From Mytilus galloprovincialis (Eukaryota; Mollusca; Bivalvia; Mytilida; Mytilidae), in the NCBI RefSeq assembly GCF_965363235.1, contig NC_134843.1, positions 95,265,795-95,329,794 on the forward strand: 64,000 nt of DNA. The letters run 5' to 3'. Position numbers and translations under genes: made by a program. Position 1 is the stretch's first letter. The number at the start of each line of letters is the position of its first letter. Below, piece by piece: positions 5,663-60,132 of this stretch. A model generated the notes under the pieces. That model did not search any database. It worked only from the letters and a program-made list of their open reading frames with translations, and was not told the DNA's origin.

Positions 5663-15660
<9,998 letters not shown>

Positions 15661-25118: not shown

Positions 25119-28100
25119 TTTTTTTTTTTCCGCCAACTTTTGTTCTTGCGATAAATGTTTGTTTCGCAATATGTCGCTTAGATATTTCTCATAAGGTATC
25201 GTATAGTTTATGCGCTTTTAAATTTTACCCTGCTAAGCCGAACCATTTTCTTTGTAAGAGTTATCTCCCCATTCACTGTTTATCATCTGTGTGCATCTCC
25301 TTCGTAACAAAAAAAGATAGCGACAAAATTCTTTTTACAAATTGTTCGTTACATCCTCAGTAATTTTTAGCGCATTTGGATCGAAGCGATTCGATGAAAT
25401 TTTATAGGAGTTATCTACCTTTACAAAATAAATTTGTCGGTATGTTTATATAACTCATCAACAGTTAACCGTATAACCCTAGAATGTTTTTATTTGAGTC
25501 CCCTAGGTCCCAACTTAGAAAATGAGGTCAAGGTCAAAGGTCAAGGTCAAGTTCTCAATTGTGACTTTTGCTTGTTTTTGCATTTTCTCCGACACTTTGA
25601 GAGATACATGTAAAAGAACAAGTGCAAAATGTCAGCTTTATTGGAATGAAGATATGCTACATTTAGTCTTATACAATTAAATGGCATCTTATAGGAGTTG
25701 GTGCCCCTGAAATGTCTTGATATGAAGTTATTTGATTATAACTTCAATTAAGTTCATTATAAAGACATTTGACCTTATACAAAAGGTTAAGTGACAAATG
25801 ACCTTGAAAAATGGCTACCGGAAGTGACCTTTAGAAAACCGGAAGTAGCTTTTTTTGCAACTTTTTCACATAAAAGTACTCAGAATCCATAATATTTGTC
25901 ATATAGATACATGAACAGATTACTGAAGACTAAAAATGACTTTCAACAAACCGGAAGTGGCCAATTATCTCCCATTCTACATACAAAAGTATATAGAAAC
26001 TATATATTTTTGGAATCAGTGTGAAAGAAGCTATCATATGAGACCGGATGTGACATTCATTTCACCGGAAGTAGCATATTATCTCCCTTATATCACTCAA
26101 AAAGATAATTAATCCATCATTTATCGCATCAGTATAAAGAAACTACCTTCTTATCCAAATTGCTTTGGTTTGGAAAGACTTTCAATTGTTCTCTGAACAA
26201 TTGGTTTTTAATTTGTATATGTAGTTGCTTTTATCAGCAAAGTCATTCATAAGTAAAAAGTAGGTTGTGGTGACTTAATTCTAAATAGACCTTCTGTATC
26301 CTTAAGACATAATCATTTTTAAAACATGATTCCTCAATGAATTCTTTTAATGGTGTAAAATTTATTTTGGTTGGAAGGAAAATCATCAAAAACAATGTAT
26401 AAACTAATAAAAGGAGTGGGTCCGGTAAGGGCCAATTTTGGCCTCAAATTTCAGGTTCATCTGATGAAAGATTTTGGACTCTTTTTAAACACGTAAGTGT
26501 CTATTTCAGTTGATACAATTAGTTAATGTGAAAGATTTTAAATGATTCACTCATTAAAAACACTCTGATTCTAGCTTAAATATGAAAAATCTATCAAAAA
26601 TGCCAAAAAAATGTCACTTTTCAGATGGTTTTTGTCAAAAATGAAAGTGGCCGCATCCCTATTCATCCTCAACCTTTATAAATGTTATGAATTATCATTA
26701 AATACAACTTACATTTCAATATTAAGAATGAATAAAGGGTTGCGCTTTAGCGCATGATACACCCGTTGCTCTTTTAACTTGTCTTTATGCTTTAAATGAA
26801 TTTATATGATCAACTAGAAATATATATACAAATCAAAAGGGATGTTACATTAATATATTCACCAAAGTTTCATAAAATCCCCCTTTTTTAAGTATAAAAA
26901 TTCATTACTTAAGAAAACGTAAAATCTAAAATTTATAAGAATGGAAAGGGAGCTTATGTCAATAGATATAAACAATTTATCAAAGTCGCATAAAATTTTG
27001 TGAAAGTGTTAGTTATTGTCCCAAAATTGGAAAATCCCCCCTTTTTTAAGCATAAAAATTCATAACACGGAAATGTAAAATCTGAAATTTATAAAAATTG
27101 AAAGGGAGCTTACATCAATAGATATAAACAATAAAAATTGAAAGGGAGCTTACATCAATAGATATAAACAATTCACCAAAGTTTCATGGACATTGGTGAA
27201 AGCCTTTTTGAGTTATTGTCCGAAGTGTTGAAAATCCCCCTTTTTTTTTATGAATAAAGCCCCATAAATCCAAAACTTAAAATCTGAAATTTATAAAAAT
27301 TGAAAGGGAGCTTACATCAATAGAGTGTTGAAAATCCCCCTTTTTTTATGAATAAAGCCCCATAAATCCAAAACTTGAAATCTGAAATTTATAAAAATTG
27401 AAAGGGAGCTTACATCAATAGATATAAACAATTCACCAAAGTTTCATGGACATTGGTGAAAGCCTTTTTGAGTTATTGTCCGAAGTGTTGAAAATCCCCC
27501 CTTTTTTATGAATAAAGCCCTATAAATCCAAAACTTAAAATCTGAAATTAAAAAAAAAACGAAAGGGAGCTTACGTCAATAAATATAAACAATTCACTTA
27601 AGTTTCATGGAAATTGGTGAAAGTGTTTTTGAGTTATTGTCCTAAGTGTGGACGACGGACGGACGGACAGACGGACGGACAGACGGACGGACGGAAAACG
27701 GTATACCATAATACGTCCCGTCTAAAAGACGACGGGCGTATAAAAAGAATGCGGCCACATTCATTTAAGTCGGAAACCGTCTAAAATTTAACTGTAATGC
27801 TATAATTGTGAAGATTTCAGTAATTTAGCATGACTTAATGTTGCTAGTACCCAATATATGTGCATTGTATTGTCAAAAACAGCCCATATTAAGATAGTAG
27901 AAGCATTTTACTTTCCAATTAATAACTTAAAGTTTACAGTTTATCAATTTTTGTAAAACTGCTATATTTGGGGGCCAAAAAGGGGTCTTACTGGACCTAC
28001 TCCTTTCATATCCCTTGGACTTTTCGGAGTGAGGTGATAATGAATTACCTTAATGATTTTTAGACCAATAGCTTTCCTTCTTTCTAATACAACAGGTAAT

Positions 28101-31100
28101 TTATCAGCTTCTTCTACATTCCATATTCTTATTGTTCTATCCTGTAAAAAAATATTTACCATATTAGGATCTCACAGTATAATTAACATACAGTTAATTT
28201 CCTATGGCCCAATTTGAACAAAATCTTGTTCTCAATAGTCAAATATTGGCCTAATTGTTAACATACTAGCTTTAATCTTCTTTTCAATAATTAAATGTAA
28301 GTAAGTTATGTAATGGAAAACAGTCTAATTTGACTTAATCTTTACCATATCAACAATAAACTACAATTTAATTTTAAGCTGCAGTTATGGGTAAATGTCA
28401 TAAGCTAAACACATTGACATTCCCTAGAAACATTCACTTGCATTTGTAAAACATACAGGTATACCAAAAGATTCACAAAATATAATTAATTATGATGAAA
28501 AAGACAAATTATCTAATCATACATACTTTAGAACATGATAAAACAGTTTTCTGATCACTACCAAAACACACATCTTCTACCCAGTCGTCATGACCCTGTA
28601 AATAAATTATATCATTCACTATAAATACATCAATGAAGAGTCTTTATTTTGATATAATGGTAAGCTATAAATCATTGACTCAACCCATATGTTGAGAAAA
28701 CAGCAGCAAAAGATCAAAAGAGAGTACACATGTTAAGCTATCACATGATACAGTTAAGTGATAGGATTTCTCATAGTATGAATTACAGCAAACCTCTAAA
28801 AAAAACTTTTTCTATGGAATGCACCTGGAATAAATTAGATCATCACTTAGCTGGTGCTCATTTTTTGCATTGCTAAGCTGTCATCAGGTACAGAGTTTAA
28901 GCTTTATACAATTTGGGACAGAGATTCATCTGTTAAGTGAACCCTTAAAATAGCCATATCTAAGGGAAATGGAACAATATATCTTTACACTTAGTGTAAT
29001 TACTTCCCCTTCTCAATAAAAATCACCTTTGAGAAGATTTATATGATTCAGTCTAATTTTAGTTCTTTTTGAATTTTACTTCTAATAAAATATGTTTTCT
29101 ATCTTTATTGATCACTTGTTTATATCAGTAAATGTACCTGAAGTTTGACTTTCTGCACTCTGTTATCAACATCCCAAACACACACTGTGGAATCGTAAGA
29201 CCCTGTAACTAACTGTAAACCTAAAAATAAACACAATTTATCAAGGAAAACCAATAGGAAAATATTATTAATCATATATAGGCTAATAATGGTTAACCAT
29301 TACCTCAAACTGATATTTTATGCTAAGATTTTTTCCTATGTAACTACATTTGAAAATTTACAGATTTATCTCCCTTTACCTATATTTTCACTTTATTTTT
29401 ATACATTTGGCATAAAAATTATTTCACCTACTTCATAATTTCTTTCCTTTTCTGTTTTTAATCTCCTTTAGATATTGTTTTTTTTTACAAAAAATAATTA
29501 TATTTTCCAGTATTCTGAGTTTAATGGAGTGAAAAATGGTGACCTACCATCCGGACTAAATGAACACGAACTAACAGAACCATCATGGCTGCCACATAAT
29601 TGTCCAGGGCCTTTTGATCTATAAATAAAAAAAGTAGAATTTAAACTATATGATCTTGGGCAAAGAGTGGCTGTCCTTCTTCTGCAGTCAACTCTCACTT
29701 AATCATAAGTATGACTGAACATTCATTAATTGAGAATAAGCAATTTTGGGGAAAAAAAACCTTTCATTTACGGTATGCCGATTAATGTGAATTCTTCAGT
29801 AGTTTACATAGAACATAATAAGAAACAGACCTGATGTACTATCCGATATTTCATGTTGTTTTGTTTATATATCACAAGCAAGTGGCTCACCTCCTGCTTC
29901 AATCCAGTTTTATATTGTCACATGACTTGTTAATATATCTATTTGTGAATAGTATATATTACATATGATACATTCATCAAAATTCTTTTAAAGAATCTCC
30001 CATTGCCACACAAGATCACTTAACAGGAACTTTTATCTCAGCAACGCTGGGGATGTTTTTCTGGGCCATGGTTTACAAATCCAAATTGACCATTTACTTC
30101 CCTTTAGGAGCTTATGAACAACTCACCTCACAAGCTTTATACGATCCTTAGTTTGCTAGCCAACCTTTTCTAATCATAATTGAATTTGAAGGTTTTAATG
30201 AAGATATATAGGAATAGATTACCTGTAACTTCCTGTAGCTATATCCCAGATATTAACAGTTTTATCCCAGGAACCAGTCGCAAACTTTCTCTCATCATGA
30301 CTGATATCACAGCATGATATAATATTGATATGTCCTCTGCAAGAAAAGTAACAATGATAAATTTTACTATTTATTTTTAATATTTTAATACAGTATCATA
30401 TATCAAATACACTTGAATTAACATCATATAGTTCTGATAAAATCATTTTATTTTACTCTGATATGTAAATTCTAAAACTGCCTTACAGTATCAGAAATAC
30501 AATCAGTAAAAACAAAACTCAAGATTTCATACCTGCATGGTCACATTAAAATACTTATTTCAAAATAGATTTTAGAAAACTTTCGCCTGTGCCAAGTCAA
30601 GAGCCTTTAATTCAGTTGTTGTTGTTTGTCCTATTGGGGCATTTTATTACTTGTTGTGTGGTAAGGGTTTTGCCTATTGTGAAATCTGTACATGTACTGT
30701 GAGTTACAGACCTCTAGTTGTTAACTTCTATCTCATTTAGTCTTTGGTGGAGAGTTGTCGTATTGGAAATTACATCACACATACTAATTTTATATAATTA
30801 TATATTAGACTATTACATAATACTTAGTTCAATTCATCTGTCTGAAATCAATGTCAATGATTTAGCAACTTTTTACTACTTACTGTACAGTAATAGTGAC
30901 TTTTAAGGTCTTTAGATCATAGAATTTGGCAGTTTTATCCATGGAGGTTGTAATAATCTTATCATCACCAGGAGCAAACATACACTTGGTAATGGTACTG
31001 GTATGAATGTCTGAAATAAAATTAAATGTAGGTTGGATTATCTTAAGCTTGTACCAAAGCACATAATAATGTTCATGTCACTACTTTAAAGAATCCTAGG

Positions 31101-34100
31101 ATAAACTTGTAGAAATCAATCTTGGTCTTCTGTATAGAGCAAGTTTGGCATCTTAATAAGATTACATAATTTCTACACTCTCAATAGTTTAATTCAAATA
31201 TTCAACATAAATAAGGCTGTTAGTTTTCTTGTTTGAATTGTTTTTCATTGTCATTTCCGGGCCTATATAGTGAACTATGCAGTATGGGCTTTGCTCATTG
31301 TTCAAGGCCGTGCAGTTACCTATAGTTGTTAATTTTTGGGTCTTTTGGTCTCTTGTGGAGAGTTGTCTCATTGGCATTCATACCACATCTTTTTTTTTTA
31401 TATTGGCAAGCCAAACACTAAAATAAAAAAAATAAAGGGCTTGATACACACACTCTCCTTTTCCTTAAAATAAGACAAGCTAATTGCATAAAATATTAAC
31501 TGTTTCTTTGTTGGATTTATAGATGACATATCTTTTACATTCATTTTACTTGTTATCATGGTTATTTTAATTTAACATTTCAACAAAATAGTAAATACAA
31601 TCATTAACTAGATACTTGTCCAACTCAGATATCCTGGGTAATTTTGAGATTCAATCAATTTCAATGAGTAGTTAACATTCTGAATTGTCTTGAATCAAAA
31701 TGAATTACAGATTTTTTGGTACATACCGTCAACATTATGTATGAGATCTCCTGTATTAGAGTCCCAGATTTTAACCGTGTTATCCAAGTCTGATCCAGAA
31801 ACCACATATTTTCCATCATGTGAAAAATTACAACTTGTCACAATACCAGCATGTTGTCCTGACCACTGCAAGAAATTAAAGTTTTCATATTTTTCTTTTC
31901 TTTTGTAGTACCTACTCAATAATTGCAATCTTTCAGAAATAGGCTGATTAAAAGATTGGGGATGAACACCACTTTCAGCACCATTGTGCTATTTTGTGGC
32001 AGTCATTTTTTATTGATAGACCAGGAAGACAGAGTGCCTGGAGAAAACCACAACCTTTAGTAGATTTTGGAATAAGGTGGAGATACTTAAGTAGTCCACA
32101 TTTACAAACAAGATAATTACTTAACTACATTTCTTCGTACTCAAAATAGAAATATATTAAATCATAGTGACATTTATTTTACAGCACCTCTAGCTGATTC
32201 AGTTTGTTTACTATTATAACCCAGATCGTGGTGACATTTAGCCTTACAGAGCCTCCAGTTAATTCAGTTTATTTTAAAACCAGTTAACTCACCACACAAT
32301 TTCCTGATTCAATATCCCAAACAGCAACTTTCTTATCCCATCCACAACTAACAAATCTGGAAATAATGAATAATCTTAGTAACATTCAATATCCCAACAT
32401 ACAATGGTTATTATGATTGATAGGTATTCCTTCACATTTATAAAATTTAGATAAGATCATCATATCTAAAAATATGTAAAGATTTTGTTATTGCTATTTT
32501 TGTTGTGTGGTTGCTGTCAGATTAATGTATACTCTCCTTTTATTTATATTCTAATCAGTAAACTATATCTATGCTACACCACTCATGTTTGATTGTGTTG
32601 ATGGGTTGCTGTCTCAATGATATATACTACACTGTTCACATCTACTTTAACTCATAACTATAAAAATATAGCTAACTCCATGTATTTTATAAATTTGTTG
32701 ACGTTGAAATATAATGAACTTTTTCTGTTGAAATAATACTGAACTTTTGCAGTTGCAATATTACTAAACTCATAATAATAAATACATAAAATTGAGAATG
32801 ATATTTTAAAATGCTACGACTCCATGATTATTCAATACTAATATTCTTTTGTTATAAATAATGTAACAGTAGATATAGATTTCATTTGTTACCTTCTTCC
32901 ATTGTCATTGACATTAGCTTGTGATATAATGCTATCATGACATCTTGTATAGTTATGGAGAACTTCTCCTGTCTCTACGTCCCAAATCTTGATTGACTTG
33001 TCATCTGAGGCAGAGAGGATTTTCTTATCATTGTCAATGTATTTACAACTTCTTACTGTGTCTAAATGTCCACGGAAAACTTTTATTCTTAGCTGAAAAA
33101 GAAAATTACATACATGTACATATAAAAATAGGGAGGGCAGTCAGGGGTACTACTTGTACAAGTTATTTTTATTTACTTGAAGAAGTAAAAAAAAACATAC
33201 ACATCTATAAGTAAATAAATAATGTTTAAATAATCTCCCCTTAATTTTCTCAAAAATTTACTTCTATAAGTAAATTTTTCTTACAATCCCACAAAAGTCC
33301 TCAAGTTTTGAGATGTAAATTCATGCCTTCATTGATTTTTCCCAGGTTTGCTCAATTTTTTTTATTAGAGTTCAATGTTTCATCTCGCTAATTCAACAAA
33401 GAGACTGATTGGCAAAGATCCTAAGTATTTCCGCAAGGCCTTCAAAATTGCTCCTTGGGGACTTGTAAATGAGCAGTGTTCTGAAGTTAACAGACAAATG
33501 GGATTTTCAATGTCCTTATCGCTAATCCCGGCTGACCCGGCCGCTTGAACTTTTGACGCATACAACAATCACTTTTCCATTGTGGCGTCAGATATTTTGT
33601 TTTGTGACGTCAAAATTTTACGGGAACCTGTGTGATATTCAGTAATGGCGGACAAATAGCGATAAGGTGTATAATATTGACCGTTACATTTGAGAGATAT
33701 TGTAGAAACTTATTACACTTTTTAATTTTCGGTCTTTTATTTTGATAAAGGTACAGCACTGACGAGAAGATTGCATAAAGTAAAACATGGACATATGTGT
33801 CCCTCCGTCAGGAAGAGACTTAAACTTGGAATAGCCCAAACAAATTATGTTCAAATCAAATTTTGATATCTAAACCTGAGCTAAATCTTCGTGTTCCCAA
33901 GTTGCCGTGGTTCGGCCAGCCTCGCTCTCATCTTGTACTATTTCAACTGATAATTCTTCTTCATCCATTGTCCATATGCAATGTTTTTTTCTCACATTTC
34001 ATAAGTGTGTTTAGAAAATTTTCGCGTCCCTGGTTTCCTATCGGAAATAAGAATAAATATTGACGTAAAATATGTTAATTTTATTTCATTTATATTTGTA

Positions 34101-41900: not shown

Positions 41901-44900
41901 CATGATATATTAACTACAAAATGTGAAAGCAATCACCAATTGCAATTATTTCTTGGATAGAAAATTGTCGTCAGTGTTTCTTGGCTTCTATGAAAGGGAC
42001 TGATTTCATATTTGATCTGTGATTGGATTATGTTGAGTTGTAGAGTTGAATTATACGGTACAGGCTCTTCCTGAAAATTTTCAAATTTAAAATACTCATT
42101 GTACAGGGAATGTTTAAACTTTATCTATTAACAGTATTTCATTCAAGTCAAATTGAACATAGTTTTGGAAATTGTCTTCATCAGTTATGCTTCAGTGCAC
42201 ATGTTACCTCAAAAAATTTCATGCAGTGCCACAGGTCCAACCTGGTATTGTTCGTGTTGAAATCTGATAAATCATGATATACTGTTCATAATACTTTTAT
42301 TTTCAGGGAAAACATAGCATCAGATTGTTTCTATGGGTGTTTTGTTGTCACTTGTACATTATGTGCATTTATAAGTTTGGTATGGTTACGTGAACAGATC
42401 CTTCATGGTGGAGGACCAGAGTGGCTAGAACAAGATGACCAAGGACAGAATCCTCAAAGGGTATACTTTATCAATTAATGTGGTTTGCAAAGATTTACAA
42501 ATAAGTCAACATGACCGAAATGGTCAGTTGACCCCTTTAGGAGTTATTGCCCTTTATAGTCAATTTTTAACCATTTTTCGTAAATCTTAGTAATCTTTTA
42601 CAAAAATCTTCTCTGAAACTACTGGGCCAAATTAATCCAAACTTGGCCACAATCATCATTGAGGTAGCTAGTTTAAAAAATGTGTGGCGTGACCCTGCCA
42701 ACCAACCAAGATGGCCGCCATGGCTAAAAATAGAACAAAGGGGTAAAATGTAGATTTTGGTTTGTAACTCTAAAACCAAAGCATTTTGGAGCAAATCTGA
42801 CATTAAATTTTTAGAATATATTTTCCACTGTAATTACTGGGCCAAGTTCATTATAGATAGAGATAATTGTAGCAAGAAGAATGTCCAGTAATGTAAGATC
42901 TTCAAACACATCATGATCACCAAAACACAATTTTGTCATGAATTTATCTGTGTTCATTGTTTAATATGCACATAGACCAAGGTGAGCGACACAGGCTCTT
43001 CAGAGCCTTTAGTTATGGTTGGCAGTTAAAGCACCTTTTTATTTTAATTTTTATAATTGTATTTTGTAGAATTTCTTGGATGCAGGAATGGTCAATAACT
43101 TAGTTGGAGGTTTTGGAGGTGGAGCTCCTAGAGCAGCACCAGCCAATCAAAATGAAGATAACAACCAACAAGCACCTGCTGGAGAAGTCAATGAGGAAGA
43201 AGTAGAGGATGATGGGATTGAAGGTGGTAACAATGGAAACAATGCTGCTCAAGGTCAGATATTTGCATGATTCATATTGATTTGTTAACTTGATTCATAT
43301 TATTACCTTTACATTTGAACATTATTGTAATCTGTAAAATGAAAATTATGTTCTCTTGTATATTATATGGTTAAATATTGTATAAGAAAGGTTATAATAC
43401 AAAACTAAATTGAACGCCATCAATGTCAATGTTTCAGATGAAATAAACTGGAACCCAATAGAATGGGACAGAGCAGCAGAAGAATTAACTTGGGAAAGGG
43501 TAGGTAACAGTTATTGTCAACTTAGCAGTACTTATGGTTTTTATACGACCGCAAAAATTGAAAATTTTTTGGTCGTATATTGGTATCATTTTCAGATGTT
43601 TGTTGGCACAGCCAATCTTCAAAAGAGGGACAAAAGATACCAAAGGGACAGTCCAACTCATAAATCTAAAACAAACTGACAACGCCATGGCTAAAAATGA
43701 AAAAGACAAACAAACAACAGCACACATGACACAACATAGAAAACTAAAGAATAAACAACAGGAACCCCACTGACAGCTATACCTTCTTGTGTAGAAGGCA
43801 ATATCATGTTAAAATACAATCCAGCCTTGGAACTCATTGGGGTAGAATTTTAAGAATACCGCCTTGTCTGCTTTATAAAAAAAATGATGAATGTTTCAAG
43901 ATAATAAAAAAATCATTCCATTCAGTTTGTAATCCAAAATAGAGCAATAACATTTAAATATATTTATAAAAAAAGATTTGTACTGAATAGTGTGCTTTAA
44001 AACTATTTTTCATGTCATAGTCCAAATGAAACTGTGCTAATTATTTATTTATCACTTTAACAGTTCAGTATAATATAACAAATGTCCCTTTGTGCAGAAT
44101 GGCAGTTTATCATCTCTAACAAATTATAATATGGGCTACAGCTTGGTTTGATCCATATAGTTTTTGGCAGATTTCTGACCAGTCCATGAAGTGCCATATT
44201 GTCCTTATTGCCACACATCTTTTATTAAATATTACATTTGATATATTAATGATATGGCATTATAAAACTTTCATAAAATTTAGCTTTTTCTGCTTTCCTA
44301 TCAGAACAGTAAAATTCTTCAACTTTAAGGCTTGTTTGTTTAGATAGGTATAGGCTTGTTTGTTTAGATAGGTATAGGCTTGTTTGTTTAGATAGGTATA
44401 GGCTTGTTTGTTTAGATAGGTATAGGCTTGTTTGTTTAGATAGGTATAGGCTTGTTTGTTTAGATAGGTATAGGCTTTATTGTAATAATTTATTTTGTTT
44501 ATTGATTTTATTTGGAAGATTTCTTTTTTTTTTAGCTTCTTGGACTTGATGGATCATTGGTATTCTTAGTAAGTATATGTTAGATGTAAAGTTATGTTGA
44601 AAAATCAAGATGTTTAAAATTTAAATACATATATACCTCATGAAACCTCCAAGACTTTTACTATAAGTTTAATATAGAATTATCTACAAGAACAAACTGA
44701 AAGTCATGAAAAACTTAGTAATATGCATGTAAGAACTTTTTTATTATAGTAAAAGTGTATTTGTACACAAAAAAAGAGATCCTGTGCCCAGGTATTGCTT
44801 TGTATGCATCAACAATCTATCGTTTATTTATTAAACACAAACATAATCTAGTGAAGCCCTATCTGAAAAGTAAATTTTCTATTATTAAATTCAATATTAG

Positions 44901-47900
44901 AAAAATACATAATACTCAAAGTCAGGTTGATATCATAATATAGGGTTATTGCATCAATATTGGGGAATATTGTCCCGAGTAGAATTGTATATTGCATGAG
45001 CTTGCGAGTGCAATATATGTTCTACGAGGGACAATATTCAACAATATTCATGCAATAACCCTTTTATTGTATAGCAATATAATATTTGAAAAGTAAAAAC
45101 TGGTTTAAACTAAGATTTTGTCGTTAATGACGTCATGCATTTTGAAGATTTATTGCACTAGTGCAATATTAGAATTTATTGCACGCTAACTTTTCGTTAC
45201 TTTCTGTGGGAAATATTATATTGTTATGCAATAATAAATAATATTTATGTTCTTTTTCAGGAACATGTATTTTGGGTGGTTTCATTGAACACATTGTTTA
45301 TATTGGTATTTGGTAAGTCTTATATCATTGTTTATATTGGTATTCGGTAAGTCTTATATCATTGTTTATATTGGTATTTGGTAAGTCTTACATCATTGTT
45401 TATATTGGTATTTGGTAAGTCTTATATCATTGTTTATATTGGTATTTGGTAAGTCTTATATCATTGTTTATATTGGTATTCGGTAAGTCTTATATCATTG
45501 TTTATATTGGTATTCGGTAAGTCTTATATCATTGTTTAAATTGGTATTCGGTAAGTCTTATATCATTGTTTATATTGGTATTCGGTAAGTCTTATATATC
45601 ATTGTTAATATTGGCATTCAGTAAGTCTTATATCATTGTTTATATTGGTATTCGGTAAGTCTTATATCATTGTTTATATTGGTATTCGGTAAGTCTTATG
45701 TCATTGTTTATATTGGTATTCGGTAAGTCTTATATCATTGTTTATATTGGTATTCGGTAAGTCTTATATCATTGTTTATATTGGTATTTGGTAAGTCTTA
45801 TATTGTTTATATTGGTATTTGGTAAGTCTTATATTGTTTATATTGGTATTCGGTAAGTCTTATATATTCTTAAATATATATTTGTTATTCAGTTAAATGA
45901 CTTGATATCAGTCAATCATGAAAGTTTTGTATACTTATGATAATTATAGATTATCTTTGGTGCTGAAAAGTTGGAGGAGTTACTTGGCTTCATTGTCAAT
46001 GAAAGGGGACAGCTCTGAGATTTAGTATAAAGAGATCATAGATAATATGCATATTGCTATTTTCTGAGGGAACATCAATTACCTAACCTTATGACAACAT
46101 TGCGAATGTTTCTCTAATGGATTCAGAAAAATCAGTTTCAATCCTTTAGCTTGAGATTGAAAATAAGGACACAGAGAGAACAAAGAAAAACATAATAAAA
46201 AAACCCCAATAAGTATGTGGATAGTATCTATACTATTAAACGAGAAGACCTCATTTTTGGTGTCGCTTCTCTTCTTTCCAGAATAAATTAATCAACATGC
46301 CTCTGTATCCTATAGGTACAGTGCATAGTCGCATTTGTCATCCATTCATATGATTATTCAGATTGAGTTATTTTAGGAGAAAAACGAGAAAAAAGGCATC
46401 CGGATATTGTCCCGTCATTGTACGAAATTTTAAGTCAGATTAGACTTCCGGTTTGCGTTTTTCTGTATACTTTGAACATACATATACTACGAATAAAGTG
46501 TATTTTCAGAATTTTATCTGCTATCATTTTCAAGTTTACTATCCACGGCGGTCACAGAGTTTATTAAATAGAGAGGGTCTGTATAGTATATCAATGATCA
46601 CCATGGATCGATTAGTAAACTTAGAATTGAAAGTAAATACGCTTTATTTATATAGTAATGAATGTTCATAATATACAGATAAGCGCTAAAATTATTCATG
46701 TGAACTTTTGATACTTTTTCTGAAATTCTCCAGTCATTATATCTTTTACAAAATTCATTGATTACATAAAAAAAAGAAGATGTGGTATGATTGCCATGTT
46801 AAGACAACTCTCCACAAGAGACCAAAATGACACAACTATAGGTCACCGTACGGCCTTCAACAAAGAGCAAAGCCCATACCGCATACTCAGCTTCAAAAGG
46901 CCCGAAATGACAATGTAAAACAATGCAAACGAGAAAACTAGCGGCCTTATTTATGTACAAAAAATGAACGAAAAACAAATATGTAACACATAAACAAACG
47001 ACAACCACTGAATTACAGGCTCCTTACTTAAATACATGTTCATAACATACTAAATGTATGTTCATATTGAAATTGATAGAAAACCAAAAATTGGGAACTT
47101 TGGAAATAAAGGTGGAGGGTAAAAAACATTTTCCTGTCCCCAATAACCTATGACTTATGATACTTTTGCTGAAATTCTCCAGTCATTCTGTATTTTACAA
47201 AATTCTTCCAACAACACTTTACATACTTTAAACTACGCTCTGAATGCCCGCGATTTCGCGGGTGTGTTCTAGTAGTACTAATAGTAGTAACATACACATA
47301 TAATTAAACAATTCTAATGAATTAATTTTCTTTACTTCTACGTTAAGTTATTACTATCTTCTAATAATTTAATTTTGGATGTAACACGTCTTCTGATTGG
47401 CTGACGTTATTTTGTTATGAGCCCATAGACATAATTTAGTCATGTGACCGTGACGTCATCAACGTTTCTCATGGTTTTCTACGGTTTAAAATGGAATTTA
47501 GAATTAAACTGTAAGAAATGACTAATATTTTTTCTGTCTATTCGAAATAACATGAAAAATGTGGTGCACACTGTTAAATAACCCGCTACGCGCGTTATTC
47601 AGTGTGCACCAAATTTTTTATGTTATTTCTTCATAGACAGAAAAAATATTACAGTCATTCCTTAATTAGATGAAAAACATTACATATATATGCATATCAA
47701 AAGAATATTTTGTTTACAGCTGTTCATATTTAGTCACCTTAATGTATTTATAATTATTATAAAAACACCAATTAAAATATTTTTTAGTTGTTTGAAATAT
47801 GTTTTTATATTTTGATATATATATTTGATTGCAGCCTTTTGTCCTTTCCATATTGGACATTTTACGTTAGTTGGACTTCGTCTAGATGACATTGTAAGTT

Positions 47901-51000: not shown

Positions 51001-54000
51001 AATATATGAGGGAAGACTTGGAAAAACTAATCTTAAAAAATTACAATTTATTGTCATTATTCTATATTAATATGATTTGTGATTTTCAGATGATTCATCT
51101 TCCAGTATACAGACATGCCAGAAGATTTACAGCTTCAGTGGTATGTTCATTCTTTCACTATAGATGGAGATAATTTGTTAGTTATTTGTATTCGTTATAT
51201 GTATTTTTATCGGAAAATGACTATATATGAAAGGGATAGTTTCACATTTTTTTTTTTTACCATTTAAGAACTTTTTTATCTAGGCTATACAGATCAAAAT
51301 TAAGCAAATTGAACAAAAATGTAATTCTTTGTTTTTTGCAGATTATATTTGGGAGTACAGTACTACTGATGTTGTGGTTACCAGTTCGAGTTGTCAGGAA
51401 GATATTTACTGGTTTCCTGCCTTATCATGTCATGTTATCTAGGTATTATGAATACATATATCCTTGGAGTCATGTGACTACAATACTGCATTAAACATTA
51501 AAACATTGTGATTTATTCAACAGATATACTTGTACTGTGGTACAGATGTAAGAAGTTACCAAAAAAACAAGTATTTGTTAAAGTGATGTAAAGCTAACCC
51601 AAATTTGTAAATATAAAGAATGCTATCATGTAATGATTTATATATTCACAGAGTAATATATTCATGGATTCACTTTGCAATAAATTTTTATGAACTCTAC
51701 CTATTCTTGATATGTTTCTATTATTCAACATCTTCAAACTTCTTTTTTCTGTGTTGTAGAATATTTTGACCATTTGTTTGATTGCTGTATTGTATTACTG
51801 CCTTTATTTTTTTTACCATAGTTGATTTTAAAATTGTGTTTTTCCAGTGCAGGAGAGAACAGGCTAAAATAAAATTAGTCCATCATTATCAACAATACTG
51901 AGGATGAATAATTTATATGTATTTTTCAGTGATGCCCCAGTTAGTGAGTTATCTTTAGAGTTATTGTTACTACAAGTTGTACTACCAGCTTTACTGGAAC
52001 AAGGCCACACAAGGATGTGGCTGAAGGGTATGGTCAGAGGATGGACGCTGGGCATGGCTTATATTCTTGGCCTGAGATCATATCTACTCGGGGATGTACC
52101 AATAAACAATGCAGTAAGTATTTAATCAAGTGCCTGAAGTTGAATTATAATAGGGTTAAGGTTGTGATTTTATAAACTTTGAATTTAAAGAAATATGAAG
52201 AAGTATAGAATCATACAGAAGTTGGGTAATCCAGTCAGAGAAGATTACAAAGTGATACATATTTCATGCATACATTTTTATATTCTGTCCTGTTTCTTAT
52301 CTCATTAACATATGAAATTGAGAATGGAAATGGAAAATGTGTCAATAGAGACAACAACCCGACCAAAGAGCAAAAAACAGCAGAAGACAATTGGTCTTCA
52401 ACATAGCGAGATAATTTTGCTTTATATTTTTTGTAGTAGAGTTTATAAAAATGAAATCTATATTTGAAAAATATATATTTTTATCATTACTACTAAATAA
52501 AAGAGAAATTAAATGTTGAAGCTATTTAACAAAAGTTTTGTCTGTCCCATTTTATTCACTTGGACATACATTTTATTACATCTGTACAATATATTTTAGG
52601 ACAATGTGGTAGAGGGTGACCAGCCTGTACAGCATCCTGCCCCAGCTAACCTGCCCCAACCTCAGCCAGGAGGATTAGGAGCTGCTCACCAAGCCATGCT
52701 CCAGGGAGGTGGGCCAACTGGATTCCAGGCCTATAAAAGACCATCAGTATTCCATTTTAGAGTATGTGAAATATGATTTTGGATGAATCTATAATAACAA
52801 AAAATAGTGTGAAAGATACCTATCGTAGAATGGTTGTATCAGACACAAATTAAGGCTTAGTAAAAAGATACCTATCGTAGAGTGGTTGTATCAGACACAA
52901 ATTAAGGCTTAGTAAAAAGATACCTATCGTAGAGTGGTTGTATCGGACACAAATTAAGGCTTAGTAAAAAGAACGTCTGTTTGCAATGATACTTGTATTG
53001 GAACTCTGAATAGCTAACGTCACAACAATGGTGACGTCATGTACATGGAGAGCGGTAGCAGGAACACCTCATGTGCAATTCTTATCAATACCAAAGGAAT
53101 ATTTAACCATCTCAAGTCAAATAGTAAACTGAAAATGTCATGGCAAAATACAAAAAAAGGGGAAAAAAGACAAACAACAGTACACAAAACACAAGATTGA
53201 GCAACACGAATCTCACCAAAATCCAGGGGTGATCTCCTACTCTAGAAGGGTAAGAACATCCTGTTCCGCATGTAACACCCATTGGAATTGGTAGCTGTAA
53301 TATAAAAAAAAAATAATCTCGCACCAAAAAAAACATAACAAAATCATATTTAAATCAGAACCACTATAATTTGAAAGTAATGTTTTCAACATTATACAGC
53401 AATATTTTCGGCTATCAATATTTTCATTCTTAGTATATTTTTTTTTTTTTGTTTTAATCTGAAGTTTTGAGTGATTCTTTAGGAAATAGTTGCTGATGAA
53501 AACAGATGCAACATTTTAGTAGATTGTTGTAACCTTGTATAATTTTCTAATTTCAGATTGTTCTGTTGGTATTGCTGATGTGTTTTACCCTATTCTTCTG
53601 TAGTCTTTTGTCTTTGGTTTTACCTGGTAAGTTTTAATAATGGTGGCCAAGGGAGCTAATATTCATGTATTTTACCAGCGTTAAATTTTTCAAAAATTTT
53701 CAAACACCAGTTTGAATGCAGATATGATTTGAATGTTTGTTTTCATATATATGCTAGACTCAATATGTAAAAAACCAATAGAGACTTTGATCTCGTAAAA
53801 TATGTTGACATTTGCTGAAAAAAATCTATTTTGATGTTGGTTTCATAATTATGGTATGAGACATGTGCTTGCCTATCAAATTAATTGCTATAATATGCCA
53901 CTGTTTGTTAATGACAATTCAGCCTGAGATTGGATATACCTTTAAACCAGGTTATATTTAACATTCTGATATTATTCTAAATAAAATAGGATCATTGAAA

Positions 54001-57000
54001 AATTTCTATCAACAAGGAATTATTTATCAGATGTTTCTAAAACTGAAATGTACACTTCACTGCATTACAGTATGGTGTGGTCGTCAGTTGATGGCCCTGT
54101 GGATGGGAGAGGCTATGGTCCATGAGTTATATACAGCAGCTTGTGGTCTGTACATCTGTTGTTATCTATACTTCTTTGTATTACAGTATGGTGTGGTCGT
54201 CAGTTGATGGCCCTGTGGATGGGAGAGGCTAGGGTCCATGAGTTATATACAGCAGCTTGTGGTCTGTACATCTGTTGTTATCTATACTTCTTTGTATTAC
54301 AGTATGGTGTGGTCGTCAGTTGATGGCCCTGTGGATGGGAGAGGCTAAGGTCCACGAGTTATATACAGCAGCTTGTGGTCTGTATATCTGTTGGATGTTC
54401 CTACGTATTGGTACTGTCATGTACAACTGGATACCCCAGGGAACAGTAGCCATACTGAATAAAGTCAAAGAATGGTTCCTTCTTGTAAGTCTGCATATCT
54501 TAGTATTTTAACCTCCGTTCTATTATTATCCAGCAAATGTTCTCTTTTTGATAGATTTCTGTAAAATTTCATAATCTTTATATGCTGTATAAAAATGTGC
54601 ATGAAAATATGATCCTTGTCAAAAAAGTACTTAAAATTTTCTTTTGCAATGAAGGTATTTCTTTGTAAATAAACTCATCATAGATATCAGGACTAAATTT
54701 TGTATATAGGCCAGACGCGGGTTTTGTCTACAAAGGACTCATCAGTGATGCTCGAATCCAAAAAGTTGAAAAGGCCAAATAAAGTACGAAGTTGAAAAAG
54801 TACCAAAAAATTGTAATATTTTTGCACCTTTTCTTGAAAAATAACAGTACAAAGCATACCTAAATTTATTCACAAACAAAATATTAAAAGTATAAATCAC
54901 ATGAATATGTAGAATGCACAAATTTTGTTTGCCACAGTTGTATTTGAAGCAATATTGAAGCTAAAATGTATATAGATATAAGAAGATTTGGTGTGAGTGC
55001 CAATGAGGCAACTTTCCATCCAAGTCATAATTTGTAAAAGTAAACCATTATAGGTCAAAGTATGGTCTTCAACACAGAGCCTTGGCACAAACCAAAGCAA
55101 GCTATTAAGGGCTCCTAAAAAATTACTAGTGTAAAACCATAGACAGGTGCAAACAACTGCAGCAGGTTTAAACATTTTGATAGGTATTAACTTTCACCCT
55201 TACCTGGAACACTAGTGTAACATCACAACATAGAAAGACACACTATAAAATATCAATTGAATTGGCTTAACTCAATCAAAAGACATTGAAAATAAACAAA
55301 GTGAATATACACTAAACGAATAAATTTGATCTATGACACAATGTAAATTCAACATCAATAACATAAAGGGTGAGATTGATAGTTATTACTACTTACTACA
55401 ATACTCAAATAATTTAACTTTTGAACATTTTTAAAATCACTTGTTAAAAAATATTATTTTTCAACATTAACTCCATACCATATTGTAATAAAAGAATGCA
55501 GATCCATAATTTGTATGAAAGGTGTGTGTTGCTAATTTCTTTTCTTTATCTTACAGGCCATGAAGTGTTTCATAGTAGCAGCTTTACTGATAGGATTTGT
55601 TCCTTTACTCCTGGGGCTGTTGTTTGAATTAGTCATAGTAGCTCCCCTCAGAGTACCTCTTGACCAATCTCCTATTTTCTTTCCTTGGCAGGTGAGTTTA
55701 TTGAATTTTACACCTCATCACCTAATGGGAAATGATTGGAAATTAAGAAAACATTAATTGCCACACAATATTTAAGAGATATACAACATGTACAAGCATA
55801 ATGATAAGTTCATGTTCTGTTTATACATGTATTTAGTGAATTGGAAACACTGATGAACGAATATTAATTTACAACAAACTATATTTTTGTATTTTTTTTC
55901 ACACAGGATTGGGCTCTAGGAGTTCTCCATGCCAAGATAGTTTGTGCAATAACAATGATGGGACCACAGTGGTGGTTAAAACGAGTCATAGAACAGGTAC
56001 ATTTTTTTTATAACAGCCAAATTAGTTTTTCATATATTTATCATGTTAATCATTTCTTTAAGATTTATTAAACTGCATAATAGCTGGGTCAGATGGAAAT
56101 CGACCTTTCACGCAAATGAATATCAATAGATCTGTTAACCTTTTTTGAGGGGGGAGGACCTTTTTTTGGGATGACTGGATCAGGTTTTTTTTTAAGGATT
56201 TTGGGATTGATCCTTTGGGGATCCAGGAATTCTTGTTTTAAATTTAGGTATGTCAGCATTTGAATTTCTTTAAATGCGGGATTTCAGGATTGGGACCCCT
56301 CCAATACCATTTTTAATGGATTTTGTGGGTATAGGACTGGTGAACCACGAAATTATATGTTCAACGAATGACAAATTTTTCTAAAGGCTTTTATAAAGAC
56401 TTAGGCAAAACCATGAAATATATACTGTCCACAGACATGCAAGTTTTCCTTCCACCACGAAAATAAATGAATCCACAGAATGTATAATTCTGGGAAAAAA
56501 TTCTGTTAAAAAGGAAATAGGTTCTGTTCAAATTATCAATATCCATTAAGGAAATGTCTCATATTATAATGATAAATCAAGTTTAAAAGAGGGACAAAAG
56601 ATACCAAAGGGACAGTCAAATTCATATATCTAAAACAAACTGACAACACCATGGCTAAAAATGAAAAAGACAAACAAACAACAGCACACATGACACAACA
56701 TAGAAAACTAAAGAATAAACAACGCGAACCCCAACAAAAAACTACGGGGTGATCTTAGGTGCTCCGGAGGGTAAGCAGATACCTGACTTTATTTCAAATG
56801 ACCATTCAGATACCTGTGTTTATTTTCATATAAAAGACGAAAAAAGTATTGAAAAAGATTTTAAAACATAGTCGTATTTAAATTTATGAAGGTAAAATTT
56901 ATTTGATATTTTATTGTTGCCACTAAAACTCAAATTGTAACATTTAAATTAATAATTTATGTCACATGGTATATAAATAGTTAAACATTTTTGCACTACT

Positions 57001-60000
57001 GTTTGGAAGCAAAGCCAAATATTTCAAAAGTATTGAAATTTTATTTTTTATGCCCCACCTACGATAGTAGAGGGGCATTATGTTTTCTGGTCTGTGCGTC
57101 CGTTCGTTCGTTCGTCCGTCCGTCTGTTCGTTCGTTCGTTCGTCTGTTCGTTCGTCCGTCTGTCCCGCTTCAGGTTAAAGTTTTTGGTCAAGGTAGTTTT
57201 TGATGAAGTTGAAGTCCAATCAACTTGAAACTTAGTACACATGTTCCTTATGATATTATCTTTCTAATTTTAAAGCCAAATTAAACTTTTGACCCCAATT
57301 TCACGGTCCACTGAACATAGAAAATGAAAGTGCATGTTTCAGGTTAAAGTTTTTGGTCAAGGTAGTTTTTGATGAAGTTGAAGTCCAATCAACTTGAAAC
57401 TTAGTACACATGTTCCTTATGATATTATCTTTCTAATTTTAAAGCCAAATTAAACTTTTGACCCCAATTTCACGGTCCACTGAACATAGAAAATGAAAGT
57501 GCATGTTTCAGGTTAAAGTTTTTGGTCAAGGTAGTTTTTGATGAAGTTGAAGTCCAATCAACTTGAAACTTAGTACAAATGTTCCCTATGATATTATCTT
57601 TCTAATTTTAATGCCTAATTATATTTTTTATCCAATTTCACGGTCCATTGAACATGGAAAATGATAGTGGGAGTGGGGCATCCGTGTACTTTGGACACAT
57701 TCTTGTTACTGAAAGTTTTAATGTTGAGTAGATATAAGAAGATGTTTTTAGGAATGCATTCGTTGTCCGAATCCCTTATTATGAATTTGTAAAACTGTAT
57801 TTTAAATTTGATTAAAAAATTGATTATATTGCAGATATATAATGATGGAATACGTAACATCAACCTGCGATTCATCATTACAAAACTGTGTGCTCCTGTG
57901 ATAGGTGTTCTGGGCATGTCCTTGGCTGCCCCTTATGTTGTTGCCAATAGTATTGTACCATTTTTAGGTGAGGTATTTTTATATCATTCATTATTCTTTC
58001 AGTGTTAAATAGGGGGGGGGATATTTCCTCTTGTAAACAGTTAATTATCTTTAAATTAAAGCAAAAAGGAGTTGTGTGTAATCGTTCAATGAGACAAACA
58101 AACAAATGACATCAAAACATTTAGAGATCAACAAAACATTGAAATGTAAAAAGAAATCATGTGACTGCCAAAAAGACCTTGATGTCAAAGCAAAATGTAA
58201 ATAAAAATACTAATGTAATATTTTCATGGTAACCATTGAAAAATCTTAAAGAAGTAAACATAAAAAAATGACGTCGTATAATTTATTGTGGAGATTTTAT
58301 GCCCAACCTACGATAGTAGAGGGGCATTATGTTTTCTGGTCTGTGTGTCCATTTATTCCATCGTCCGTGTGTCTGTTGGTACTGCATTAAGATTAAAGTT
58401 TTTGGTCAAGGTAGTTTGATGAAGTTGAAGTCCAATCAACTTGTCACTTCGTACACATGTTCCCCATGATATGATCTTTCTAATTTTACTGGCAAATTAA
58501 AGTTTTTACTCCAATTTCACGGTTCACTGAACATAGAAAAAGATTATGCGAAGCTCAGGTTAAAGTTTTGGTTAAAGTTTTTGGTCAAGGTAGTTTTTGA
58601 TGAAGTTGAAGTCCAATCAACTTGAAACGTAGTACACAGGTTTCCCATGATATGATCTTTCTAATTTTAATGCCAAATAAAAGTTTTGACCCCAATTTCA
58701 CAGTCCACTAAACAAAGTAAAAGATAGTGCGAAGCTCAGGTTAAAGTTTTTGGTCAAGGTAGTTTTTGATGAAGTTGAAGTCCAATCTACTTGAAACTTA
58801 GTACACATGTTCCCTATGATATGATCCTTCCAATGTTAATGCCAAATTAAAGTATTGACCCCAATTTCAGGGTCAACTGAAGAAAGAAAAAGATAGTGCG
58901 AAGCTCAGGTTAAAGTTTTGGTTAAAGTTTTGGTCAAGGTAGTTTTTGATGAAGTTGAAGTCCAATCAACTTGAAACTTAGTACACATGTTCCCTATGAT
59001 ATGATCTTTCTAATTTTACTGCCAAATTAAAGAATTGACCCCAATTTCACGGTCCAGTGAACATGTAAAATGGTAGTGCGAGTGGGGCATCCGTGTACAA
59101 TGGACACAAACTTGTGTATTCAGGTATTTATATTTCTACAGGTTTTGGTTATGAAGCACAAGTTTTAGTACTAAGACGAATTTACCCATGCCTGTTGGCC
59201 TGTTTAATTATTGTGTTATTTGGAGTATTCCAAGCTAGACAGTTCAGGAGATTGTATGAACATATTAAGAATGACAAGTAAGTACTAGACAGTTCAGGAG
59301 ATTGTATGACCATATTAAAAATGACAAGTTAGTATAACTGTACAGGAATTATTTAAATGCCCATTTTAAACATACACAATAAAGACCACATAAAGTAAAC
59401 ATGATTTCTACCAACCCGGTTTTATAGTATTGCAGCAGGACAGATATTTTGTTTAAGGTACACAGTGATATGAGTTAGACATTAATCATCATACTGGGTT
59501 GTTGAAAAATGTATACTTAAAACAATGTTTTCAAGATTATCTTGTTAATCAAACAATATGGCTGCTGTTTTATGCAAAAACATTAGGGATGAATGGGAAT
59601 GTGAAGAAAAACTTAGAATTAAGCAAGTTCTAATTCGGTTATTGTCAAATTAAATTAAAAATATATATTTTCACAAAAAAGGATGTTAATTATCCACTTC
59701 ATGTAACCAGGAATAGTTTCAAGCAAAATGGAGACAGAAGATAATTTAAATCTTTCACAAACAGCTGCTAGCATAGATTATATCACGATATGGCTTTCTT
59801 TGTAATTGAAACACAAAAGACAGAACTATATTTTAATTAATCATACATAGAAAATAACTTATTCTTTTTTATTTACACCATTTATAATTTTGTGCTGATG
59901 TTGTAATTTTATATTCATGTAAAATTATATGATTCTATAATTTTTTGTTTAAATACAGCAAATTTTACTCCAATATCAGCAGTTGACACATTAATAGATG

Positions 60001-60132
60001 ATACAAGATGTGCAGTATTTTGAAATAAGTTTGATATTTTGTTTCAGATATCTGGTAGGTCAGAGATTGGTGAACTATGATTCAAGAAGATTAATTAAAC
60101 TCCCTACTCAGAGTTTGCAATCATCATCATAG
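34229..60132 (+). CDS. MARCHF6: MARCHF6 (TEB4/Doa10) ER E3 ubiquitin ligase
   Basis: Twenty-five coding exons: 34229-34262, 39595-39691, 40270-40343, 41166-41309, 41779-41851, 42307-42460, 43070-43253, 43438-43499, 44536-44568, 45261-45312, 47835-47893, 49541-49650, 50152-50266, 50619-50822, 51090-51140, 51342-51442, 51930-52113, 52600-52761, 53557-53626, 54303-54484, 55557-55691, 55907-55996, 57835-57967, 59142-59277, 60048-60132. Total 2724 nt, 907 residues (human about 910). The start [11 protein letters not shown] precedes a RING-CH domain with all eight zinc ligands (C14, C17, C31, C33, H41, C44, C57, C60). Many hydrophobic segments follow, with an acidic loop encoded by exon 7 and the conserved TEB4/Doa10 core (for example [20 protein letters not shown]). 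The C-terminus keeps GQRLVNY with Asn889, matching the conserved C-terminal element of Doa10/MARCH6. The family ubiquitinates ER membrane and lipid-synthesis proteins for ERAD. All introns are GT-AG. Exons 10, 20 and 24 have tandemly duplicated splice sites. Confidence 0.95.
34741..37190. other. Shared intron, no gene seen
   Basis: A 126-codon + frame at 35740-36120 has an overlapping 79-codon - frame and no recognised domain. The only standout is the GC-rich block at 35281-35400. Confidence 0.5.
35281..35400. repeat. GC-rich island in the shared intron
   Basis: GGGGTCCAGGGGGCCGCTCA .. CGAGGGCGAAGCCCTG .. GGTCCAGGGGTGCAACGCC stands out sharply from the A+T-rich surroundings. It looks like a repeat fragment rather than a CpG promoter. 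Confidence 0.4.
37199..37903. mobile_element. hAT-type MITE with perfect 8-bp target duplication (705 bp)
   Basis: AGAACCTA occurs directly before (37191-37198) and after (37904-37911). The termini are GGATCTCCTGTAGTTGGTGA and its exact complement, extending to ATCGCAATACTGGTA. CAATACTGGTA- and CCAGTATTG-type subterminal motifs recur at both ends. No transposase. Located in the WDR88/MARCHF6 overlap. Confidence 0.9.
38538..38846 (+). mobile_element. GGGGCAT-family element, copy in MARCHF6 intron 1
   Basis: Starts with a small hairpin (ATGCCCC..GGGGCAT), then a CGTTCGTCCGTC microsatellite and CAGGTTAAAGTTTTTGGTC. It ends at GTGGGGCATTCGTGTACTGG plus GGACACATTCTTG. Its end abuts the putative WDR88 exon 1 donor. 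Confidence 0.9.
38850..38978 (-). CDS. WDR88: Candidate first coding exon of WDR88
   Basis: An open frame of 43 codons starts at ATG 38978-38976 and ends at a TTA|GTAAAA donor in phase 0, the phase needed by the next exon at 38248. The peptide begins [12 protein letters not shown] and is not repeat-derived. The donor sits only a few bases from the end of a dispersed repeat (38538-38846) inserted in the intron. It is a weak donor and no homology to a known WDR88 N-terminus was recognised, so this exon is a prediction from phase and position only. Confidence 0.4.
39265..39490 (+). mobile_element. GGGGCAT-family element, degraded copy
   Basis: GCCCCACCTAGGGTCATT, a shortened CTGT array, CTGCTTCAGGTTAGAGTTTT and CCCAGTTTCACAGTTCACAG align with the family. 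It lies just upstream of MARCHF6 exon 2. Confidence 0.75.
42490..43015 (+). repeat. Dispersed repeat in MARCHF6 intron 6
   Basis: ATGACCGAAATGGTCAGTTG, GGCCAAATTAATCCAAACTT, AAGATGGCCGCCATGGC and the ending GGCTCTTCAGAGCCT (itself a palindrome) form a block I recall as a common bivalve repeat. No coding content. Confidence 0.5.
43535..43790 (+). repeat. Composite repeat in MARCHF6 intron 8
   Basis: A hairpin start TATACGACCGCAAAAATTG is joined to GAGGGACAAAAGATACCAAA plus CATGGCTAAAAATGAAAAAG. The latter block recurs at 56583-56775 and, diverged, at about 53118-53300. The frames of 79-89 codons here are repeat-derived. Confidence 0.6.
44331..44476 (+). repeat. 24-bp tandem repeat, about six copies
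   Basis: The unit is GGCTTGTTTGTTTAGATAGG plus TATA, nearly perfect, in MARCHF6 intron 8 and ending about 60 bases before microexon 9. The high identity suggests recent expansion. Confidence 0.95.
44536..44568 (+). CDS. MARCHF6: MARCHF6 exon 9, 33-nt microexon
   Basis: It encodes [11 protein letters not shown] in frame between WER (exon 8) and [11 protein letters not shown] (exon 10), matching the conserved segment before the third hydrophobic region of MARCHF6. Acceptor TTTTTTTTAG and donor GTAAGT are good. At 33 nt it is in phase 0 at both ends, so skipping it would keep the frame. Confidence 0.9.
44943..45062. repeat. Hairpin, arms ~53 bp
   Basis: GGGTTATTGCATCAATATTG at 44943 pairs with CAATATTCATGCAATAACCC ending at 45062. 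The loop is a short GAGCTTGCGAG. In MARCHF6 intron 9. Confidence 0.85.
45291..45862 (+). repeat. 34-bp minisatellite made from MARCHF6 exon 10 end plus donor
   Basis: The unit is the last ~20 bases of exon 10, the donor GTAAGT, and 8 intronic bases. I count 17 GTAAGT sites: the authentic one at 45313 and 16 behind it, mostly spaced by 34 bases. Copies vary at one position (ATTTG/ATTCG) and the last two units are shortened. In the frame of exon 10, extension into the next unit meets TAA, so downstream donors would truncate the protein. Confidence 0.95.
46227..47272 (+). mobile_element. Non-autonomous Helitron-like element, copy 2
   Basis: Same TCTATACTATTAAACGAG start and TTCTAG end. It keeps an intact 3' hairpin CCCGCGATTTCGCGGG 11 bases from the end. 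A dispersed repeat (about 46770-47035) is nested inside. In MARCHF6 intron 10. Confidence 0.8.
47514..47661. repeat. Hairpin, arms ~60 bp with inner stem
   Basis: AATATTTTTTCTGTCTATTC pairs with TAGACAGAAAAAATATT, and GTGGTGCACACTG pairs with CAGTGTGCACCA. The loop holds AATAACCCGCTACGCGCG then GTTATT, an inner stem. In MARCHF6 intron 10. Confidence 0.85.
48271..49474 (-). mobile_element. Hairpin-ended element, copy 2
   Basis: Reverse-orientation relative of 25032-26212, with both terminal hairpins present (CAATTGTTC AGA GAACAATTG and AGGTCTTTCCAC AGAAAA GTGGAAAGACCT). It has poly-A where copy 1 has the ATT expansion. In MARCHF6 intron 11. Confidence 0.85.
52815..52975 (+). repeat. 52-bp tandem repeat, three copies
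   Basis: Units start with GATACCTATCGTAGA at 52815, 52867 and 52919 and differ by a couple of substitutions. They lie in MARCHF6 intron 18. Confidence 0.9.
54071..54302 (+). pseudogene. Two decoy partial copies of MARCHF6 exon 20
   Basis: Two 116-bp units, starting at 54071 and 54187, repeat the acceptor (ATTACAG) and first part of exon 20 almost exactly. Each unit has a few substitutions relative to the real exon at 54303. Neither has a donor at the end of its coding part. Reading through from either acceptor shifts the frame at the next unit (116 is not a multiple of 3) and reaches a TGA inside CAGTTGATG. They look like local tandem duplications. Confidence 0.85.
54303..54484 (+). CDS. MARCHF6: MARCHF6 exon 20 (the functional copy of a triplicated exon start)
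   Basis: It encodes a segment from [20 protein letters not shown] to EWFLL and joins exon 19 (phase 1) and exon 21 (phase 0). Two upstream partial copies begin at 54071 and 54187. Only this third copy continues to a proper donor (GTAAGT at 54485), and only it keeps the Lys found in human MARCHF6 ([13 protein letters not shown]); the upstream copies have Met and Arg there. Confidence 0.9.
54975..55180 (+). repeat. Dispersed repeat in MARCHF6 intron 20
   Basis: ATAAGAAGATTTGGTGTGAG, CCAATGAGGCAACTTTCCAT and the same internal blocks as 18690-18925. Confidence 0.7.
56583..56775 (+). repeat. GGGACAAAAGATACCAAAGG repeat, second copy
   Basis: Nearly identical to 43609-43760 over about 150 bases, including CACATGACACAACATAGAAA. 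In MARCHF6 intron 22. Confidence 0.85.
57048..57708 (+). mobile_element. GGGGCAT-family element with three internal 169-bp units
   Basis: Same start hairpin and CGTTCGTCCGTC array. The segment from TTCAGGTTAAAG is tandemly present three times (57169, 57338, 57507; period 169), then the usual end. In MARCHF6 intron 22. Confidence 0.9.
58298..59115 (+). mobile_element. GGGGCAT-family element with four internal units
   Basis: The internal GGTCAAGGTAGTTTTTGATG block is repeated at roughly 170-180-bp spacing, with short GGTTAAAGTTTT stutters. It ends 27 bases before MARCHF6 exon 24. Confidence 0.9.
59235..59334 (+). repeat. 50-bp tandem duplication of MARCHF6 exon 24 end
   Basis: The last 43 bases of exon 24 with the donor GTAAGT (59235-59284) are repeated at 59285-59334. 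The second copy has a few substitutions, and its donor is changed to GTTAGT. Fifty is not a multiple of 3, so using the second donor would shift the frame. Confidence 0.9.

Follow-up and report, generated by a model that had tools for sequence, protein, structure and literature searches.

A 17-unit splice-donor minisatellite in a MARCHF6-type gene is likely to be a tolerated mutational by-product

What does it mean for a gene when the end of one of its exons, together with the splice donor, is repeated 17 times in tandem, and do the additional donors serve any function? The question is raised by a locus in a stretch of 64,000 nt from the genome of Mytilus galloprovincialis (contig NC_134843.1), which was analysed as a whole and is referred to below as the window; its low GC content (31.6%) and its repeats look like those of a bivalve mollusc, and the GC content does not point to amphioxus. 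Tandem Repeats Finder (TRF) reported a minisatellite at 45292-45865 on the forward strand (574 bp, period 34, 17.0 copies, 95% matches, score 1004), in which a 34-bp unit is repeated head-to-tail, each unit corresponding to the last 21 nt of a coding exon followed by the first 13 nt of its intron. The exon itself (45261-45312, + strand) is 52 nt long and comprises 17 codons plus a G, and its last 21 nt (45292-45312) are the exon-derived part of the first unit and open the array. The donor hexamer GTAAGT is intact in all 17 units, the first at 45313-45318 (donor 1) and the other 16 (donors 2-17, same strand) within 45347-45858, the last of them starting at 45853. Thirteen of the 16 spacings between hexamers are 34 bp, one is 36 bp, and two, the last of the array, are 31 bp. 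A splice-donor minisatellite with 17 GTAAGT sites had been placed at 45291-45862 by an earlier, sequence-only reading of the window, and this was correct to within three bases. The exon, which that reading called exon 10, is the ninth of 24 joined exons in the present model, and the higher number would apply if a single upstream 5' exon carrying the start codon exists. Counting both strands, the window contains 49 copies of GTAAGT, a modest excess over chance (mean of shuffled sequences 36.6, sd 6.3; 49 or more in 3 of 100), and what marks the array as non-random is its regular spacing together with the common 34-base unit, not the raw number of hexamers. No other copy of the unit was found on either strand of the window at up to 9 mismatches in 34.

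The host gene was modelled by joining exons by hand, using AG/GT rules and reading frame, across 39595-60132 (+ strand). The 24 joined exons encode 895 residues in an open frame that ends with a stop at 60130; a start-codon exon was sought for the model and was not found, and the model stands without it. The predicted protein carries the Pfam domains RINGv (E = 1.1e-15) and MARCHF6_C (E = 2.7e-55), and the best solved relative of its first 559 residues is the yeast DOA10 chain (E = 5.9e-27), so that the name MARCHF6, already assigned in the sequence-only reading, appears to be right at the family level. Since the gene looks like an intact MARCHF6/Doa10-type E3 ligase gene, a working exon boundary would be expected at the array. 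The intron that follows exon 9 is 2522 bp, the longest in the model, and leads to exon 10 of the model at 47835-47893 (+ strand).

The reading frame distinguishes clearly between the donors. Donor 1 forms an in-frame junction with exon 10 and keeps the frame open to the end of the 895-residue model, and as the only one of the 17 to do so it is identified, by reading frame, as the real donor, in agreement with the earlier assignment to 45313. Use of donor 2 adds 34 bases and shifts the frame, so that translation would end after 319 model codons at a stop in exon 10 (47887). Donors 3-17 would all retain a TAA in the exon 9 frame (45348-45350, + strand, within donor 2) and would stop after 302 model codons. 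The proposal that every downstream donor is non-productive therefore holds by frame for 16 of 16, with the refinement that donor 2 fails by frameshift and the remaining 15 by the retained TAA.

The units are not identical. They carry private changes and a common T/C variant site 2 bases upstream of the donors (clustering across units, P = 0.11); the most altered of them is unit 10, which is internal, and a 2-base insertion follows unit 9. These private changes, the T/C site and the spacings of 31, 34 and 36 bp are unlike the stutter of a single unit, and 574 bp is short relative to long reads, so that multiplication of one unit by the assembly is highly improbable. The exact copy number could still be wrong, and in the accessible text of PMC3902484 lancelet boundary arrays are described in which repeats number 2 versus 7 and 3 versus 6 between sequence versions. 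Selection on the donor hexamer was also assessed. Changes were found at none of the 102 hexamer positions and at 8 of the 476 other unit positions, a count from which the T/C site was excluded among the eight changes while its 17 positions were kept in the 476, in which two of the eight changes are due to the final units being spaced at 31 bp, and from which the insertion after unit 9 was left out. The chance of observing no hexamer change is 0.18 to 0.28 (0.17 to 0.26 without the 17 T/C positions), and there is thus no significant deficit of change in the donor hexamer across the 17 units.

The additional sites match the donor consensus well, and donor 1 does not stand out from them in U1 pairing. 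In a simple calculation of duplex energy with the 5' end of U1, donor 1 scored -9.1; within the array six donors (donor 1 counted) scored -9.1, ten scored -9.3, and that of unit 10 scored -5.6. Fifteen of the 16 extra donors accordingly pair as well as donor 1 or better, the excess being slight, and of the gene model's 23 donors three pair more strongly than donor 1 and one equally. The idea that RNA structure favours donor 1 by hiding the copies was rejected, as its accessibility in a local folding estimate is 0.031 and 9 of the 16 others are more open. Recursive-splicing ratchet sites were likewise rejected, since no unit has an AG immediately before the GT. Exons of 86-154 nt should be no harder to define than one of 52 nt. 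When equal donors compete in vitro the intron-proximal site is reportedly favoured, a result attributed to Eperon and colleagues, and this rule applied to the array would select the worst donor. Given that the copies are neither weaker nor more hidden, and that the intron-proximal rule runs the other way, something must favour donor 1. Short sequences placed between competing donors can change the choice of donor, according to the accessible portion of PMC1877881; what is accessible of PMC8724738 and PMC5389562 has no direct bearing on donor choice.

That competitors so well matched to U1 are non-productive without exception, and that choice can be altered by short intervening sequences, speaks for leaky or regulated unproductive splicing, in which the extra donors would divert transcripts to decay and so lower or tune the level of the ligase, the more so with more units. 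We consider this unlikely, because no selection on the donors is evident and because published boundary arrays of the same type are reported, in the accessible text of PMC3087553 and PMC3902484, without aberrant mRNA. A length-variable and heritable rheostat, in which 16 near-equal non-productive donors take a share of exon 9 splicing that depends on unit number and on U1 or SR-protein levels, so that individuals differ in their amount of this ER ubiquitin ligase, is very unlikely. The 17 U1 sites also stand at the start of an intron with nine AATAAA/ATTAAA signals, and U1 shielding of introns has been described (PMC5499120, PMC10404622, in their accessible parts), which suggests telescripting, that is, protection of a long AT-rich intron from premature cleavage and polyadenylation by the U1-binding array. 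However, the density of such signals here (3.57 per kb) is unremarkable for the model's 23 introns (0 to 8.21 per kb), the nine introns with denser signals each have at most one GTAAGT, their own donor included, and the array donors again lack any sign of selection; we regard this role as extremely unlikely.

Two further boundary duplications occur in the same gene. At exon 19 an acceptor-side triplication (54048-54395, + strand) has a 116-bp unit made up of the intron end, the AG and the exon start; with the copies evaluated as read into one exon, only the third is productive, and the productive exon begins at 54303. At exon 23 a 50-bp unit containing the exon end and its donor, with only 7 intron bases, is present in two copies (59235-59334, + strand), of which the first donor (GTAAGT, 59278) is productive and the second (GTTAGT, 59328) is non-productive. 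In all three boundary arrays the productive site, as judged by reading frame, is the copy contiguous with the non-repeated part of the exon, that is, the first of the donors and the last of the acceptors, and this is the pattern expected if harmless duplications survive.

Whether arrays are drawn to splice sites was assessed in two ways. Merging the 13 TRF rows within 39595-60132, with overlapping and adjacent rows joined, gave ten arrays for the gene; those that touch coding sequence, three in number, each cross a splice boundary, as compared with a mean of 3.5 crossings when ten arrays are placed at random in the gene. Separately, 30-base probes centred on each of the 47 boundaries of the model were searched within 1.5 kb, allowing 4 mismatches, and local copies were found for two of the 47 (exon 9 donor and exon 19 acceptor), or three of 47 if the exon 23 donor known from the repeat search is added, a copy that escapes the probe because its unit has just 7 intron bases. 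Probes taken elsewhere, every 5 bases, had local copies at 468 of 3434 positions inside introns, at 16 of 399 inside exons and at 14 of 275 straddling positions. By this test the duplication frequency of boundaries does not exceed that of intron positions, and neither the probing of the 47 boundaries nor random placement within the host gene revealed any targeting of arrays to splice sites. The roles that the sequence-only reading had suggested for the array, namely competition for U1, a U1 sink, or the production of graded truncated transcripts, are unsupported: the conservation of the hexamer and the number of crossings are both compatible with chance, and arrays of the same type are reported, in the accessible parts of PMC3087553 and PMC3902484, not to disturb splicing.

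Those arrays are the 'mirages' of amphioxus. According to the accessible text of PMC3087553, they occur at both 5' and 3' boundaries with units of 10-72 and 150-160 bp, their lengths are unstable (haplotypes of the BflGb6 mirage have 6 and 3 units), and the data suggest that regular splicing is undisturbed. They are known, from what is accessible of PMC3087553 and PMC3902484, in the Adh (Adh3), globin (BflGb6 and BflGb9) and troponin C genes, and in the latter paper repeats of lancelet PGBD5 are likened to mirages, with troponin C mentioned. The mussel arrays share with them a minisatellite-like tandem duplication across an exon-intron boundary, on the donor or the acceptor side, with copies that carry splice signals and one authentic boundary, here assigned by reading frame, at the exon; unit sizes (34, 50 and 116 bp) are also comparable. 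In this gene the repeated unit spans the boundary, both sides are represented (donors of exons 9 and 23, acceptor of exon 19), and in all three arrays an authentic boundary is retained while the copies are dispensable for the protein as read from the frame. As to a homogenised core with divergent edge units, another mirage feature, the donor array gives mixed signs, its last two spacings being 31 bp and its most changed unit being internal. Unlike the amphioxus examples, the donor array has 17 units, every donor hexamer is intact, and the gene is of the MARCHF6 type. It looks like a member of this already described kind. In the literature searched, which was mostly open-access and included the accessible portions of PMC3045353 and PMC12783039, no clear case of a donor array in another phylum was found, and no priority is claimed; the duplications of earthworm metallothionein exon 4 in PMC12783039 bear a resemblance only, and in its accessible text a donor array is not described.

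We therefore think it likely that the array is a mirage in this sense, a mutational by-product that is tolerated and has no dedicated function. A stretch spanning the exon end and its donor would have been duplicated in tandem by chance, and the duplicated unit would then have expanded to 17 copies by slippage or unequal exchange. To judge by the reading frame, most transcripts probably use donor 1, which is anchored to the exon; it would be the first to be synthesized by the polymerase and is the sole donor that bounds the short natural exon. Removal of the 2.5-kb intron would take the 16 copies with it, and transcripts spliced at any of them would presumably contain stops and decay. The array can persist because one intact boundary remains beside the exon. 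Variation in copy number among individuals is expected from the amphioxus precedent.

Tandem duplication is also a reviewed route to intron gain, with ATP2A1 and potato RdRp among the examples; in the latter, according to the accessible text, the duplicated piece spanned an intron-exon boundary, and a duplicated boundary can become a new intron (PMC4974935). The mussel array resembles these cases as a local tandem duplication affecting splice signals, but it brings in donors alone, so that an old intron is lengthened and no new intron is needed. Intron gain by the Rogers model was rejected for the donor array, as its units contain no AGGT, the bases before GTAAGT being TG or CG and once CA.

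If donor 1 is used cleanly, the cell selects the exon-adjacent donor among 17 near-identical ones, contrary to the intron-proximal rule from in vitro work, and this contradiction, with 15 competitors that pair with U1 as strongly as donor 1 or slightly more so, is the main point of interest of the locus. Order of synthesis, exon definition and silencing between sites each make a different prediction here, and the locus offers a clean natural test of choice among near-identical splice sites. The presence of three boundary duplications in a single gene suggests that events of this kind are common, and do no harm while the exon-anchored copy survives; it also suggests that boundary duplications are a source from which new introns and splice forms can arise.

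Other repeats were seen in the host gene and elsewhere in the window. At 44328-44477 a 24-bp unit (6.2 copies, 100% matches) ends 58 bp upstream of a 33-nt microexon (44536-44568), and contains TTTGTTTAG and ATAGGTAT, an acceptor-like and a donor-like string near each other. A 52-bp unit at 52812-52972 (3.1 copies, 98% matches) begins about 50 bp past the exon 17 donor, the boundary itself being excluded. Two arrays in successive introns (57169-57669 and 58393-59081) belong to one 169-bp family and have flanks in common, which suggests an interspersed element that has tandem units within it. Outside the gene, a 28-bp unit in four copies lies at 11937-12049, with GTAAG on the minus strand of its consensus, and a long degenerate array of units of about 40 bp (6072-7428) lies about 0.5 kb upstream of a 699-residue ORF (7943-10042) with a C2H2 zinc finger at its end (E = 9e-7). 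On the minus strand, 27962-33140 contains coding segments of a WD40-repeat protein, two of which were examined and matched WD40 (E = 1.5e-9 and 4.6e-9), and the single TRF array in this interval, at 32703-32770, lies outside the open pieces taken as coding.
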